45,275 nucleotides of DNA, from assembly GCA_018266475.1 (NCBI GenBank), contig JAFEAI010000274.1, positions 1-45,275 of the forward strand, written 5' to 3'. Source of the DNA: Bacteroidota bacterium (GTDB lineage Bacteria > Bacteroidota > Bacteroidia > Flavobacteriales_F > PHOS-HE28). Both the position numbers and the translations under genes were made by a program. Of the stretch, positions 2,552-45,275 are shown piece after piece (position 1 is the stretch's first letter; each line of letters starts with the position of its first letter). The notes under the pieces were generated by a model that saw only the letters and a program-made list of their open reading frames with translations, did no database searches and had not been told where the DNA came from.

Positions 2552-2584
2552 CAAACCGTCCGCCGAAAGGCGGGCGGTTTGTTC
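2552..2584 (+). terminator. Hairpin after tRNA-Ser, likely terminator
   Basis: CAAACCGTCCGCC pairs with GGCGGGCGGTTTG around a GAAA tetraloop, a 13-bp stem with one G-T pair, starting 5 nt after the tRNA CCA. The T-run is short (TTTGTT). Its outer sequence reappears inverted in every unit of the array that follows. Confidence 0.65.
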
Positions 2585-2599
2585 GTTCCGGGGAATGCC

Positions 2600-3071
2600 A
2601 AGCGCAGCTTGAAGCATTCCCCGGAACGAACAAACCGGGAGCGAAGCGACCCCGGTTTGCATGGTGAAGCCTCCCCCTTCCGGGATAGCGCGTCTCGCGC
2701 AATCCCCAAGCGCAGCTTGAAGCATTCCCCGGAACGAACAAACCGGGAGCGAAGCGACACGGTTTGCATGGTGAAGCCTCCCCCCCCTCCGGGATAGCGC
2801 GCCTCGCGCAATCCTCCAAGCGCAGCTTGAAGCATTCCCCGGAACGAACAAACCGGGAGCGAAGCGACCCCGGTTTGCATGGTGAAGCCTCCCCCCTCCG
2901 GGATAGCGCGATGCTGAGCGATGCCGAAGCACGCGCAATCCCCCAAGCGCAGCTTGAAGCATTCCCCGGAACGAACAAACCGGGAGCGAAGCGACCCCGG
3001 TTTGCATGGTGAAGCCTCCCCCTTCCGGGATAGCGCGATGCTGAGCGATGCCGAAACACGCGCAATCCCCC
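2600..3071. repeat. Four-unit tandem array of 108-127 bp repeats
   Basis: Units begin with AAGCGCAGCTTGAAGCATTC at 2600, 2708, 2818 and 2945. They share a core running through CCGGAACGAACAAACCGGGA, the hairpin CAAACCGGG/CCCGGTTTG, GCATGGTGAAGCCTCCCCC and CGGGATAGCGCG. Units 3 and 4 carry an extra insert, ATGCTGAGCGATGCCGAA, with one mismatch between them. A perfect 23-bp inverted repeat joins 2576-2598 to 2614-2636 at the left edge. Open frames through the array have no codon logic and are not proposed as genes. Confidence 0.9.
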
Positions 3072-3189: not shown

Positions 3190-3214
3190 CGGCCCAATTC
3201 AAAACCTTTTCTCC

Positions 3215-4393
3215 ATGGCCCGCGAAGTAGTTATCGTTTCCGCAGTACGTACCCCCATCGGCTCCTTCGGGGGCGCACTGTCCACCGTGCCAGCGCCGGA
3301 ACTGGGCGCCGCCGCCATTAAAGCAGCCGTGGAGAAAGCCGGTGTGAAGGGTGGGGAGATCAACGATGTGATCATGGGTTGCGTGCTGCAGGCCAACGTA
3401 GGCCAGGCCCCGGCTCGTCAGGCCTCAAAATTCGCCGGGCTGCCGGACGGCATCCCCGCCACCACGGTGAACAAAGTGTGCGCCAGCGGCATGAAGGCGA
3501 TGATCTACGCCACCCAGGAGATCATGCTCGGCGATGCGGATGTGGTGGTGGCCGGCGGCATGGAAAGCATGAGCGGCGCACCCTACTATGTGGAAAAGGG
3601 CCGCTACGGCTATCGCTTCGGCGATGGCAAACTGGTGGACGGCATCGGCAAGGACGGCCTTACCAACGTGTACGACCAGAAGGCCATGGGCGTGTGCGCC
3701 GACCTGTGCGCCACCGAGGAAAAGATCAGCCGCGAGGAGCAGGACGCCTTCGCCATCGAAAGCTACACCCGCAGCGCCAACGCATGGAAGGAAGGCCGCT
3801 TCAAGGAGGAGGTGGTGCCCGTAACCGTGAAAGGCCGCAAAGGCGACACGGTGGTGAGCGAGGACGAGGAATACAAGAACGTGGATTTCGGGAAGTTGAA
3901 GGCCCTCAAGCCCGTGTTCACCAAGGAAGGCAGCGTAACCGCAGGCAACGCCAGCACCATCAACGACGGTGCTGCGGCCCTGGTGCTGATGAGCGCGGAC
4001 AAGGCCAAGGCCCTTGGCCTGAAACCCCTCGCTAAAGTGCTGGCCTACGCCGATGCGGAGCAGGCGCCCGAGTGGTTCACCACCAGCCCGGCAAAGGCCA
4101 TCCCCATCGCCTTGAAGAAGGCCGGCCTGAAGATGGAAGACATGGACCTGGTGGAACTGAACGAGGCCTTCAGCGTGGTGGGCATTGCCAACACCAAGCT
4201 GCTCGGCCTGGACCCCGCCAAGGTGAACGTGAACGGCGGCGCCGTATCACTGGGGCATCCGCTGGGTTGCAGCGGTGCACGCATCATGGTCACGCTGATC
4301 CATGCCTTGAAGCAGCGCGGCAAGAAGTACGGCGCGGCGGGCATCTGCAACGGAGGGGGCGGCGCCAGCGCCATGGTGATCGAAGCGCTTTGA
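3215..4393 (+). CDS. Acetyl-CoA C-acetyltransferase (thiolase)
   Basis: Encodes 392 residues, the usual thiolase II length. It condenses two acetyl-CoA to acetoacetyl-CoA, or cleaves acetoacetyl-CoA in fatty acid and ketone breakdown, in the cytoplasm. All active-site elements are visible: the nucleophile Cys89 in [18 protein letters not shown], His348 in [11 protein letters not shown], and Cys378 in CNGGGGAS. The start [16 protein letters not shown] is the canonical thiolase N-terminus; the open frame continues upstream but without family similarity. It is monocistronic, with its own -7 box and a strong terminator. Whether it serves synthesis or degradation cannot be read from the neighbours. 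Confidence 0.95.
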
Positions 4394-13990: not shown

Positions 13991-16645
<2,655 letters not shown>

Positions 16646-21672: not shown

Positions 21673-21723
21673 AACCGGGTACACCGGATCCAGTCCGGCA
21701 AGAGAAGCACTGCGCACCACCCG

Positions 21724-22509
21724 CTACCCTCCCACGCTAGCCACGCCACCATTCGCCGAAGACCACCGCCATTCCTCCGCCCTTTTCACCAGCCCCGCCT
21801 TCACCGGATTGTTGTGGATGTAGTTCACCACTGCGGCAAAATGACCGTTGTCGCGGATGTAGCGATCAAAGTAGCTGCGGTGCCAAACCCTGGGTCCGCC
21901 GGGCACCAGCCCGGCACTGCTGCAGCCGGGCTGGTGCCCGGCGGACCCAGGGTTGGATTGGTGTAGGAACGGACTGATCCTTCTGCCGGTGTATGATTTC
22001 CACGTGGCCACCACCTTGCTCATCGTCCACCCTTCCTTCGCTTGGAACAACACATGCACATGGTTCGGCATTACGCACCATGCGAATAGCCTGTAGCGTT
22101 CACCTTGGAAGTGAAGAAGCGTGTGCTCCACCAATTCCGCCAGTTCGGGGATCTGCAGCACGCAACTGCCCCTACCGGAATCGAGGTATGCGGCAACCCG
22201 CTTCTCCCTCTCCGTATCTCGCAGTGAAGGCGGCACGCTTTCCAGTTCAGTGGCCATCTTCTCCACCACCTGCCTCGGCAGGCTGTCGGCCAGGTGGAAC
22301 GTCACATGTTGGATCAGTCGAGGACTTTCCACATGCGGGTGGTGGCCCCGGTCCCACCATACCGGATCACCGGAGTTTCCGGCTGCTTTCAAGCCCTTTC
22401 CCAAGCGGCCATAGCCTGGTGCTTTCTTATCCTTCAGCCTTCGTGCTGCTGGACTGGCATCCCCACCAGTTCCCGGCATATCGGGATCATCGTCCATTTC
22501 CTTTGTCAT
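21724..22509 (-). CDS. REP-associated tyrosine transposase (RAYT, Y1_Tnp)
   Basis: Encodes 261 residues from the chosen ATG. The frame is open to 22686, but upstream codons cross an inverted repeat. The HUH motif is seen in CVMPNHVHVLF and the probable catalytic tyrosine in YFDRYIRDNGHF. RLIQHVTFHLADSLPRQ, SKVVATWKSYTGRRI and YIHNNPVKAGLVKRAEEWRW are typical of RAYTs, single-copy Y1 transposases that act on REP hairpins. Between SPFLHQSNPG and VWHRSYFDRY the frame contains a perfect palindrome of REP type, translated as about 23 residues. No IS ends flank the gene, as usual for RAYTs. Whether it is active is unknown. Confidence 0.88.
   Translation of the reverse strand: MTKEMDDDPDMPGTGGDASPAARRLKDKKAPGYGRLGKGLKAAGNSGDPVWWDRGHHPHVESPRLIQHVTFHLADSLPRQVVEKMATELESVPPSLRDTEREKRVAAYLDSGRGSCVLQIPELAELVEHTLLHFQGERYRLFAWCVMPNHVHVLFQAKEGWTMSKVVATWKSYTGRRISPFLHQSNPGSAGHQPGCSSAGLVPGGPRVWHRSYFDRYIRDNGHFAAVVNYIHNNPVKAGLVKRAEEWRWSSANGGVASVGG
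21886..21954. repeat. Perfect 29-bp inverted repeat (BIME-like) inside the RAYT gene
   Basis: Arms 21886-21914 and 21926-21954 are exact reverse complements around an 11-nt spacer. Each arm contains its own small hairpin: GCCGGGC-ACCA-GCCCGGC on one side, its complement on the other. This is the layout of paired REP elements. The length keeps the transposase reading frame open. Confidence 0.9.
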
Positions 22510-22538
22510 CACGCACCGGTCCCGGCAGTAGCCCAAAT

Positions 22539-24206: not shown

Positions 24207-24722
24207 ATGAACCGCCTCACCTTCCTCCGCAACCTCATCGGCAGCGCGGCCCTGCTCACCCTGCCCCCGCGCGAGCTGCTCGCCGAGCACCAGCCCGGAC
24301 TGCTGGACTGGACCGAGGAATGCGAACTGCTGCACGCCTGGGACGGCTACGTGAAGGGCTTCCGCTTCCACGAGGGGCCGCAGGTGCTGGCGCAGATCAA
24401 GGACGAGGACGAGCTGGACCTGCTGCGCGAGTACGACAACGAACACGACCCCGATGCCGTGGCCGTTTATTGGCAGGGCCGCAAACTGGGCTACCTGCCC
24501 ATGAGCGAGAACCGCACCCTGGCCAACCTGATCGACCACGGCATGAAGCTCTCCGCCTATGTGATCTACACCCAGCCCGATGAGGACCCCTGGGTGCAAT
24601 GCTTCATCGGCGTGCAGCTCATCGTGCCCTCCAACCCTTCCTTCCAACGCTACATCGATGACTACTTCGAGCGGCCCGATGCGGGGTACAAGCGGCATAG
24701 GCATTATGGGGGGGAGGGATAG
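24207..24722 (+). CDS. HIRAN domain protein
   Basis: Encodes 171 residues. The HIRAN domain spans about 45-150, with the core motif EYDNEHDPDAVAVYWQGR followed by KLGYLP (75-98). In eukaryotic HLTF the domain binds 3' DNA ends; stand-alone bacterial versions are small, of unknown role, and proposed to recognise DNA features. The N-terminus (MNRLTFLRNLIGSAALLTLP) looks like a signal peptide or membrane anchor, odd for a DNA-binding domain. Transcribed divergently from satD. Confidence 0.85.
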   Translation: MNRLTFLRNLIGSAALLTLPPRELLAEHQPGLLDWTEECELLHAWDGYVKGFRFHEGPQVLAQIKDEDELDLLREYDNEHDPDAVAVYWQGRKLGYLPMSENRTLANLIDHGMKLSAYVIYTQPDEDPWVQCFIGVQLIVPSNPSFQRYIDDYFERPDAGYKRHRHYGGEG

Positions 24723-34383: not shown

Positions 34384-34602
34384 ATGGGTAAAGGTGATAT
34401 GAAGACGAAGAAGGGTAAGCGTACCGCCGGCAGCAAAGGCAAGGCCCGTCCTGCCAAGCGCACGGTAGCCACTGCCAAGAAGGCTGCTGCCAAGAAGGCT
34501 GCGCCGAAGAAGAAGGCCGCGCCGAAGAAGAAGGCCGCCGCCAAGAAGGCTGCGCCGAAGAAGAAGGCTGCCGCCAAGAAGGCTGCGCCGAAGAAGAAGT
34601 AA
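34384..34602 (+). CDS. Ribosomal protein THX with long Lys/Ala/Pro tail
   Basis: Encodes 72 residues. The start MGKGDMKTKKGKRTAGSKGK matches Bacteroidota THX (bTHX), a small 30S subunit protein of about 25-45 residues that begins MGKGDxKTxxGK. From about residue 27 it continues as repeats of AAKKAAPKKK, resembling histone H1 / AlgP-type tails. Two readings fit: a THX with an extra nucleic-acid-binding tail, or an H1-like protein that took over a THX start. It has its own promoter box and terminator. The tail codons are repetitive (GCCAAGAAGGCTGC) and prone to length change. Confidence 0.75.
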   Translation: MGKGDMKTKKGKRTAGSKGKARPAKRTVATAKKAAAKKAAPKKKAAPKKKAAAKKAAPKKKAAAKKAAPKKK

Positions 34603-34624
34603 GCGCTGCAACGCTACAGAAGCA

Positions 34625-38931: not shown

Positions 38932-39936
38932 ATGGCTACCAAGAAGAAGCCCTCCACGAAAAAGACCGCCGCAAAGGCAGCTACCGCATCCCGCGCAAAG
39001 GGCAAGCCCAAGGCTGCCGCGAAGAAGGCGGCAAGTACGCGTCCTGCGGCCCCGAAAAAGAAGGCGCCCGTGAAAAAGGCCGCCGCCAAGCCGGCAAAGC
39101 GCAAAGCCGCAACCGCCAAGAAGGCTGCGGTGCGCAAGCCCGTCGCCAAGAAAACAACGGCAAAGAAGGCGGCTCCGGCCAAGGGAAGGCCTTCCCCGGG
39201 GAGCAAGGCCGCCAGCGTGAAAGCCAAAGGCAGCGGTTCCGCCAAGAAGACTGCCGCCAAGCGCCCGGCGGTGAAGAAGGCAGCACCTGTCAAGGCGGGC
39301 CCCAAGCCACAGGCCAGGAAGGCCGCCCCCAAGCGACCGGCGGTGAAAAAGGCACCGGCCAAGAAATCCCCGGTGAAGAAGGCACCCGTGAAGAAGGCGG
39401 TTTCCAATGCGGTTGCGCAACCTCCCCGGGTGAAGAAGGCCCCAGCGCCCAAGCCCGCCGCGAAACCGGCCCCTCCTGCACCACAGGCGCGCCCGCCCAA
39501 GCCCACGGCGGCACCCCCTGCGCCAGTGGCCGCCGCTGCACCACGCATGGCGCTGAAGAAGCGCTACCGCATGGAATTCTACCTCAACGCCTCGCAGGCC
39601 TCGCTCTACGAATTGATCAGTACCCCAAGCGGCTTCAGCGAATGGTTCTGCGATGATGTGAACGTGGTGGATGACGTGTACACCTTCCGCTGGGGCACCG
39701 AAACCGAACAGGCCCAATGCATGGACCAGGTGTATGGCGAATTCATCCGGTTCCGCTGGGTGGACGACATCAAGGACGACCCCGGCGCCTACTTTGAGCT
39801 GCGCATCCGCATCGATCCCATGACCAATGAGACCTGCTTAGTGGTGACGGACCATGCCTGGCCCCAGGACGTGGAGGAGGAAAGCGCACTGTGGGAAGCG
39901 CAGGTGCAAACCCTTACCCGGGTGCTCGGCGCGTGA
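38932..39936 (+). CDS. Histone H1-like tail fused to START-like domain
   Basis: Encodes 334 residues. Residues 1-205 are almost only Lys, Ala, Pro, Arg, Thr and Val, in motifs such as KKAPVKKAAAKPAKR and PAVKKAPAKKSPVKKAP, like bacterial H1-type nucleoid proteins. Residues 206-334 form the START-like domain common as a stand-alone protein in Bacteroidota: YRMEFYLNASQASLYELIST, SGFSEWFCDDVNVVDDVYTF, FIRFRWVDDI and VVTDHAWPQDVEEESALWEA. The frame is continuous and a -7-like box precedes the first ATG. An internal ATG at 39547 (MALKKRYRMEF) matches the usual start of the domain, so a short form is possible. The joint role is unknown. Confidence 0.85.
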   Translation: MATKKKPSTKKTAAKAATASRAKGKPKAAAKKAASTRPAAPKKKAPVKKAAAKPAKRKAATAKKAAVRKPVAKKTTAKKAAPAKGRPSPGSKAASVKAKGSGSAKKTAAKRPAVKKAAPVKAGPKPQARKAAPKRPAVKKAPAKKSPVKKAPVKKAVSNAVAQPPRVKKAPAPKPAAKPAPPAPQARPPKPTAAPPAPVAAAAPRMALKKRYRMEFYLNASQASLYELISTPSGFSEWFCDDVNVVDDVYTFRWGTETEQAQCMDQVYGEFIRFRWVDDIKDDPGAYFELRIRIDPMTNETCLVVTDHAWPQDVEEESALWEAQVQTLTRVLGA

Positions 39937-45109: not shown

Positions 45110-45159
45110 CGCCCGCGATCCCTTGCTCCGGCCCTATTTCCTGCGTTTGGTGAAGAGGC

Positions 45160-45275
45160 CCTGTTGGCGCTCGGCCCCAGCCGAGCGCACTCTATTCGCA
45201 AGGCACCAGCCTTGCACCCTGTTGGCGCTCGGCCCCAGCCGAGCGCACTCTATTCGCAAGGCACCAGCCTTGCAC
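45160..45275. repeat. Two tandem 58-bp units of REP-like hairpins
   Basis: Units at 45160-45217 and 45218-45275 are identical. Each has two perfect hairpins: GCGCTCGGC-CCCA-GCCGAGCGC and GCAAGGC-ACCA-GCCTTGC, joined by ACTCTATTC. The array reaches the right edge and may continue. The loop and stem layout matches the palindrome inside the RAYT gene. Confidence 0.93.

Follow-up and report, generated by a model that had tools for sequence, protein, structure and literature searches.

In this work we have asked why the gene of a RAYT transposase should hold, inside its own reading frame, a palindrome of the kind that presumably serves such enzymes as substrate. The RAYTs, a large group of transposase relatives that occur in single copy, are of unclear use to the cell, and REP-type hairpins are the presumed DNA targets of these enzymes. 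The locus lies in a window of 45,275 nucleotides, by which we mean the whole stretch of DNA that was analysed (contig JAFEAI010000274.1 of the Bacteroidota assembly GCA_018266475.1), and the coordinates of its features are collected in Table 1.

Table 1. Features of the RAYT locus (window positions) and of related proteins in other loci
Feature	Position	Strand	Basis or detail
RAYT/TnpAREP gene, 262 aa from GTG 22512 (or 261 aa from ATG 22509)	21724..22512	-	Y1_Tnp, NF047646, fold
In-gene inverted hairpin doublet (REPIN-like) NPGSAGHQPGCSSAGLVPGGPRV	21886..21954	-	30-nt arms, 9-nt loop, codons 187-209
27-nt (9-codon) element, coding strand: hairpin GCCGGGC(TGGT)GCCCGGC plus tail GGACCCAGG	21889..21915	-	translated AGLVPGGPR
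Hairpin GCCGGGC(ACCA)GCCCGGC, coding strand	21925..21942	-	inverted copy, tail on 5' side
5' flanking long double-foot REP GTAGCACACACTGGGTGCT-GCCGGGATCCAGTCCGGC-GAGAAAACCCATTGTGTGCTAA	22534..22600	-	inverted repeat 22534-22553/22581-22600
Probable 3' flanking REP; inner hairpin GCCGGACTGGATCCGGT at 21683-21699	21676..21727	-	90% inverted match to 5' REP
HmaB-flanked Y1_Tnp proteins	L128 2221-5955; L146 1444-5139; L152 1570-5547; L174 971-4834

The RAYT gene and the palindrome in its frame

An earlier sequence-only reading of the window had taken the carrier gene for a RAYT, and we agree: the protein scores 94.1 bits against the NCBIfam model NF047646 (REP_Tyr_transpos), above the curated cut-off of 80, it is matched by Pfam Y1_Tnp (E 3e-10), and the closest solved structure by fold is 4ER8, the complex of TnpAREP with a REP hairpin (E 3e-7). 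The HuH motif NHVH (residues 150-153), W210 and YIHNNP with Y231 are all intact. Against the nearest orthologues tested, dN/dS is 0.11-0.13, an approximate ratio with dS near 1 or above; the gene is intact and, by these comparisons, under purifying selection. Its neighbours in the window are a DUF3307 gene and a gene for a RecQ-UvrD-like helicase.

The palindrome is real. It had been described as a perfect inverted repeat of 29 bp; the perfect pairing holds, with arms (21886-21915 and 21925-21954) that are 100% complementary, and the length has to be corrected to 30 nt. The two nested GCCGGGC/GCCCGGC hairpins named in that description were likewise found, each with four nucleotides between its stem halves, in opposite orientation at 21898-21915 and 21925-21942. 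Folded as RNA, the segment reaches -78.9 kcal/mol compared with -38.7 +/- 3.5 for shuffled sequences (z -11.6), a stability attained by none of 200 shuffles, and the hairpin core, allowing up to three mismatches, has five matches in the window where 0.48 are expected. As had also been stated, the palindrome lies within the coding sequence and keeps the frame open: it fills its 23 codons of the minus-strand reading frame exactly in phase, and its last base adjoins the codon of W210. In an AlphaFold2 model of the protein (mean pLDDT 78), a helix at 164-186 is followed by disorder at 190-204 and a strand at 210-218, so the palindrome would encode a predicted disordered loop between the helix after the HuH strand and the strand that opens with the conserved tryptophan. 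Alignment with related RAYTs, which the sequence-only reading had recommended, showed the 23-residue stretch to be an insert-like, variable segment, and this together with the predicted loop fits its suggestion of an insertion that the enzyme tolerates.

In architecture, and in architecture only, the doublet corresponds to a REPIN, that is, two inverted REPs that form one hairpin; the repeated genomic copies usual for REPINs were not found in a pattern search of the genome to which the window belongs. No GT[AG]G foot is present at the in-gene hairpin, whose flanks are CCAACCCTGGGTCC and GGACCCAGGGTTTGG, and by the published rule this copy may therefore be a poor substrate for cleavage. Is the gene itself flanked by two inverted REPs? 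The GTAG double-foot REP on the 5' side is clear (fold -21.3 kcal/mol with DNA parameters), and it is kept in three other genomes (G004, G020 and G032), where the GTAG and CTAC feet are both intact. The REP on the 3' side folds weakly (-5.9 kcal/mol); its GTAG shares bases with the stop codon TAG (21724-21726), and its inverted match to the 5' REP runs over 21686-21706/22553-22573. The flanking stems of the window, GCCGGAC and GCCGGG-A, differ from the in-gene stem GCCGGGC.

Distribution of the hairpins in the genome

Could the palindrome be one copy of a dispersed REP/BIME family? Pattern searches of its own genome, a fragmented assembly of 3.57 Mb in 283 contigs, rule this out: the exact 69-mer is single-copy, and the GCCGGGC hairpin occurs twice, both times inside the RAYT gene of the window. 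The label REP/BIME-like thus holds for a REP-type hairpin doublet in a RAYT frame and fails for a member of a dispersed family. A palindrome occurring nowhere else in the genome had been named beforehand as a result that would speak against the proposal, and a single copy is indeed what the count gave; the link to the RAYT stands despite this, because it is carried by the flanking and orthologous hairpins. The same searches yielded no second genomic copy that might have been the source of the doublet. Around the weaker matches in the genome (for example at 24281-24305 of the window and on contigs C19, C192 and C279) no doublet was evident in context. A hairpin of the GCCGGAC type was found elsewhere in this genome only at the end of an array on contig C61. 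In the closed genome G010, seven GCCACGC hairpins all lie at 1,968,431-1,975,080, around a RAYT at 1,968,874-1,969,539, and G029 has four GCCGGAC hairpins, spread over 14,962-15,866 of a contig with a RAYT at 15,043-15,723; in these two genomes, the ones checked, no cognate hairpin lies more than a few kb from the RAYT.

Several other repeats were seen in the course of these searches. The array on C61 (G000, positions 3190-3320, locus L008) is a 62-nt tandem repeat with the hairpin GCCGGAC(AGGA)GTCCGGC and the tail GGACCCTGTG; its element type is like that of the RAYT locus, it runs off the contig end, and no RAYT was seen there. Tandem 58-nt arrays at 45159-45275 of the window, where the contig ends inside the array, and at 11010-11640 of L081 (G000, contig C209), where no RAYT gene adjoins, alternate two hairpins, GCGCTCGGC(CCCA)GCCGAGCGC and GCAAGGC(ACCA)GCCTTGC, with NCCA loops that resemble those of the RAYT hairpins. 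Positions 2575-3058 of the window hold four copies of a 127-nt repeat, in which a 24-nt palindrome arm, CGGTTTGTTCGTTCCGGGGAATGC, pairs perfectly with its inverted counterpart, and histone-H1-like alanine-lysine codon repeats occupy 34450-34617 and 39013-39384.

Orthologues and the wider RAYT family

Genus RAYTs at 57-75% identity carry different in-frame hairpins in the same place, with the stems GCCAGAC, GCCGGAC, GCCACGC and GCCAAGC, and the in-gene peptide varies along with the stem. The sequence-only reading had allowed that close homologues encoding the same residues without palindromy would refute it; they encode other residues with other palindromes, so this objection fails. The RAYTs of G004 and G020 share their genomic position with the window gene, adjoining the same DUF3307 gene; both keep the 5' double-foot REP with its GTAG/CTAC ends, and both have a different in-gene segment. 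The element also forms tandem arrays of 36 and 48 nt, in G018 and G011; on contig C77 of G018, three 36-nt copies stand in tandem within the gene and another three follow it. Some genus RAYTs are possibly broken: in L042 (G043) the frame shifts at the hairpin site, and L031 (G032) and L032 (G020) have in-frame TAG codons within the matched stretch.

For a wider view we took the best 80 loci listed from a scan of named genomes which, with the window, make 81, of which 78 keep the HuH and the tyrosine in one frame; an in-gene hairpin was defined as a perfect 7-bp hairpin with a 4-nt loop between these two motifs. Among these matches, 27 of the 78 loci have in-gene hairpins, 32 in total, and all 32 begin on a codon boundary (phase 0), a rule that may partly reflect common descent, since the loci were picked by similarity to the window RAYT and are not independent. 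Past the stop codon the hairpins listed show no phase preference (8/12/6). Their density among the matches listed is 1.90 per kb in the gene, compared with 0.13 per kb in coding DNA just upstream and 0.16 per kb far away. The typical element, common to in-gene and flanking copies, is a hairpin with a GNNCCCRG tail behind it, which together span nine codons (27 nt); the tail is present on 24 of the 32 in-gene hairpins listed, and the matches that have tailed in-gene elements, at most two stem mismatches being allowed, come from nine named phyla. Hairpins in and around one gene usually share a stem, and stems vary between the loci listed: the in-gene stem equals a flanking stem in 19 of the 27 loci, compared with a mean of 5.4 and a maximum of 12 when these loci were shuffled (2000 shuffles). 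On a core tree built without the insert, a quick tree that is weak in places, the hairpin switches between present and absent about 14 times, and at least 8 of these switches fall on well-supported branches. The in-gene site may be shared by ancestry. That one ancestral insertion should have persisted with no turnover is difficult to reconcile with these changes of state and with the differences between syntenic orthologues.

What maintains the palindrome?

Is it the hairpin or the peptide that is conserved? We used a null anchored on the peptide rather than on the hairpin, in which the codons were redrawn synonymously. In one clade of 27 members, 148 of 189 stem positions are paired compared with 87.8 +/- 5.2 under the null (maximum 105), and 13 stems are perfect where 0.1 are expected; in eight genus members the figures are 51 of 56 compared with 26.3 +/- 3.0 (maximum 38). 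By these comparisons the DNA hairpin itself is conserved, and not the peptide alone, and the null rejects palindromy driven by the peptide. That the peptide is what counts and the palindrome is its by-product seems to us very improbable, although AELGLGVPG is widely conserved in one clade even where the stem is degenerate (L127, L136 and L156); stem pairing lies far above the synonymous expectation, the genus peptide changes along with the stem, and the loop is predicted to be disordered. A chance palindrome or an assembly artefact can be practically dismissed: the assembly is fragmented and short repeats can break assemblies, but all 30 of 30 arm positions pair, the fold is far outside that of shuffled sequence, and in-frame hairpins stand at the same site in independent genomes.

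The explanation that we consider probable, taken as a whole, is that the palindrome belongs to the RAYT locus itself: a REP-type hairpin, lodged in the gene as an inverted doublet, which is recognised and turned over together with its flanks and survives where the reading phase allows. On this view the RAYT would read the hairpins in the gene and those beside it alike, each in single-stranded form, and the in-gene copy would be replaced in step with the flanks, either because the enzyme cuts and rejoins the DNA or because the copies recombine with one another. A copy would survive if its length is divisible by three, its phase is correct and the loop tolerates its peptide; other copies would break the gene and be lost. 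Three observations weigh against this explanation: the in-gene copy has no GT[AG]G foot, the flanking stems of the window do not equal the in-gene stem, and the genome yielded no second copy of the doublet as a source.

Could the in-gene hairpin instead be a selected cis-acting site, by which the RAYT binds its own mRNA or single-stranded gene and limits its own expression or activity? The perfect stems across phyla and the strong synonymous constraint would suit such a site, as would L171, where the in-gene hairpin is perfect and each flanking copy has a mismatch, and the mRNA of the window gene, which holds a 30-bp stem of -79 kcal/mol. However, 51 of the 78 relatives among the matches listed lack a perfect in-gene hairpin, which with the turnover on the tree marks it as dispensable, the same constraint is explained by homogenisation with the flanks, and autoregulation by RAYTs is not described in the literature that we found; we regard a cis-acting site, the main rival, as possible but doubtful. 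The sequence-only reading had offered, as its second suggestion, a recognition site borne by the gene or its mRNA, and this may still hold. Homogenisation of the in-gene and flanking hairpins might also need no enzyme, if such short repeats recombine in the ordinary way or slip during replication. The tandem arrays in G018 and G011 and the spacing of the copies, about 1 kb or less, are in keeping with this, but the copies are short and in both orientations, the hairpins remain near RAYT genes, and the constancy of loop and tail, beside stems that vary from locus to locus, suggests matching to the enzyme, so that we think an enzyme-free process rather unlikely. To return to an enzyme that reads its own locus, we would propose, speculatively, that a widespread RAYT branch maintains the in-gene hairpin for self-recognition, the gene holding the substrate of its own enzyme at one protein loop and in one codon phase. 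The enzyme and its hairpins, those in the gene and those beside it, would then co-evolve together, and this unit would either curb expression of the enzyme or preserve the locus as a target, with no dispersal through the genome.

Comparison with known REP systems

In-frame REP insertions in genes of TnpAREP subclass 2.4 (Bertels group 4) have been reported by Quentin et al. (2018, PMC6006769). As far as that text shows, the window locus resembles this subclass in having Bacteroidota among the hosts, in the NHVH and YIxNNP motifs, in an in-frame REP between HuH and Y, in a variable peripheral loop, and in a double-foot GTAG REP adjoining the gene. By the same text it differs in having WH where the subclass has WQ (motifs NH[IFV]H, WQ, YIxNNP), in an in-gene copy that lacks the GT[AG]G foot and bears the GNNCCCRG tail, and in copies that, in the two genomes checked, stay within the locus. 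The variable insertion of subclass 2.4 is placed there between beta3 and alphaC; in our model the insert is bounded by helix 164-186 and strand 210-218, and the naming of elements may differ. YIH[QN]NP with an insert after a helix is, by the same description, also compatible with subclass 2.6. The class of in-gene hairpins is thus already known, and stem matching, the single phase, the synonymous constraint and locus confinement, which we did not find in the main text of PMC6006769 (the supplement aside), extend that report as far as its text shows.

The REP, BIME and REPIN elements of gammaproteobacterial RAYTs are numerous, dispersed and mostly extragenic (PMC2817692, PMC3116915). The window locus shares with them a RAYT accompanied by inverted palindromic REPs and doublets, and hairpins that vary by locus while palindromy is kept, but its doublet occurs once and lies inside a gene. 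Rickettsia palindromic elements and other intragenic REPs lie in many unrelated genes (PMC3733652); they too are in-frame palindromes in protein genes, with doublets coding for 20-30 residues, whereas here the gene that carries the hairpin is the RAYT of its own locus, and the doublet is single-copy in the genome. Co-evolution of REPs with RAYTs has been described (PMC2817692, PMC8266576). A hairpin within the gene of its own enzyme, whose stem agrees with those beside the gene and varies from one relative to the next, offers ready-made enzyme/substrate pairs, with which the reading of hairpins by RAYTs, the rewriting of their own gene and control by the hairpin become testable.

RAYT-like domains in HmaB-type proteins

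A RAYT-like Y1_Tnp domain was also met in the middle of proteins of 1232-1326 aa, with matches to the anti-phage methylase HmaB on both sides (Table 1). In these four embedded copies the gap between HuH and Y is short and no in-gene hairpin was found. The HmaB-type proteins score about 980-1500 bits against PADLOC HmaB and have an N-terminal DUF1156, and reading frames of 1263-1304 aa in G002, G013 and G041 (L043-L045) are probably of the same type.
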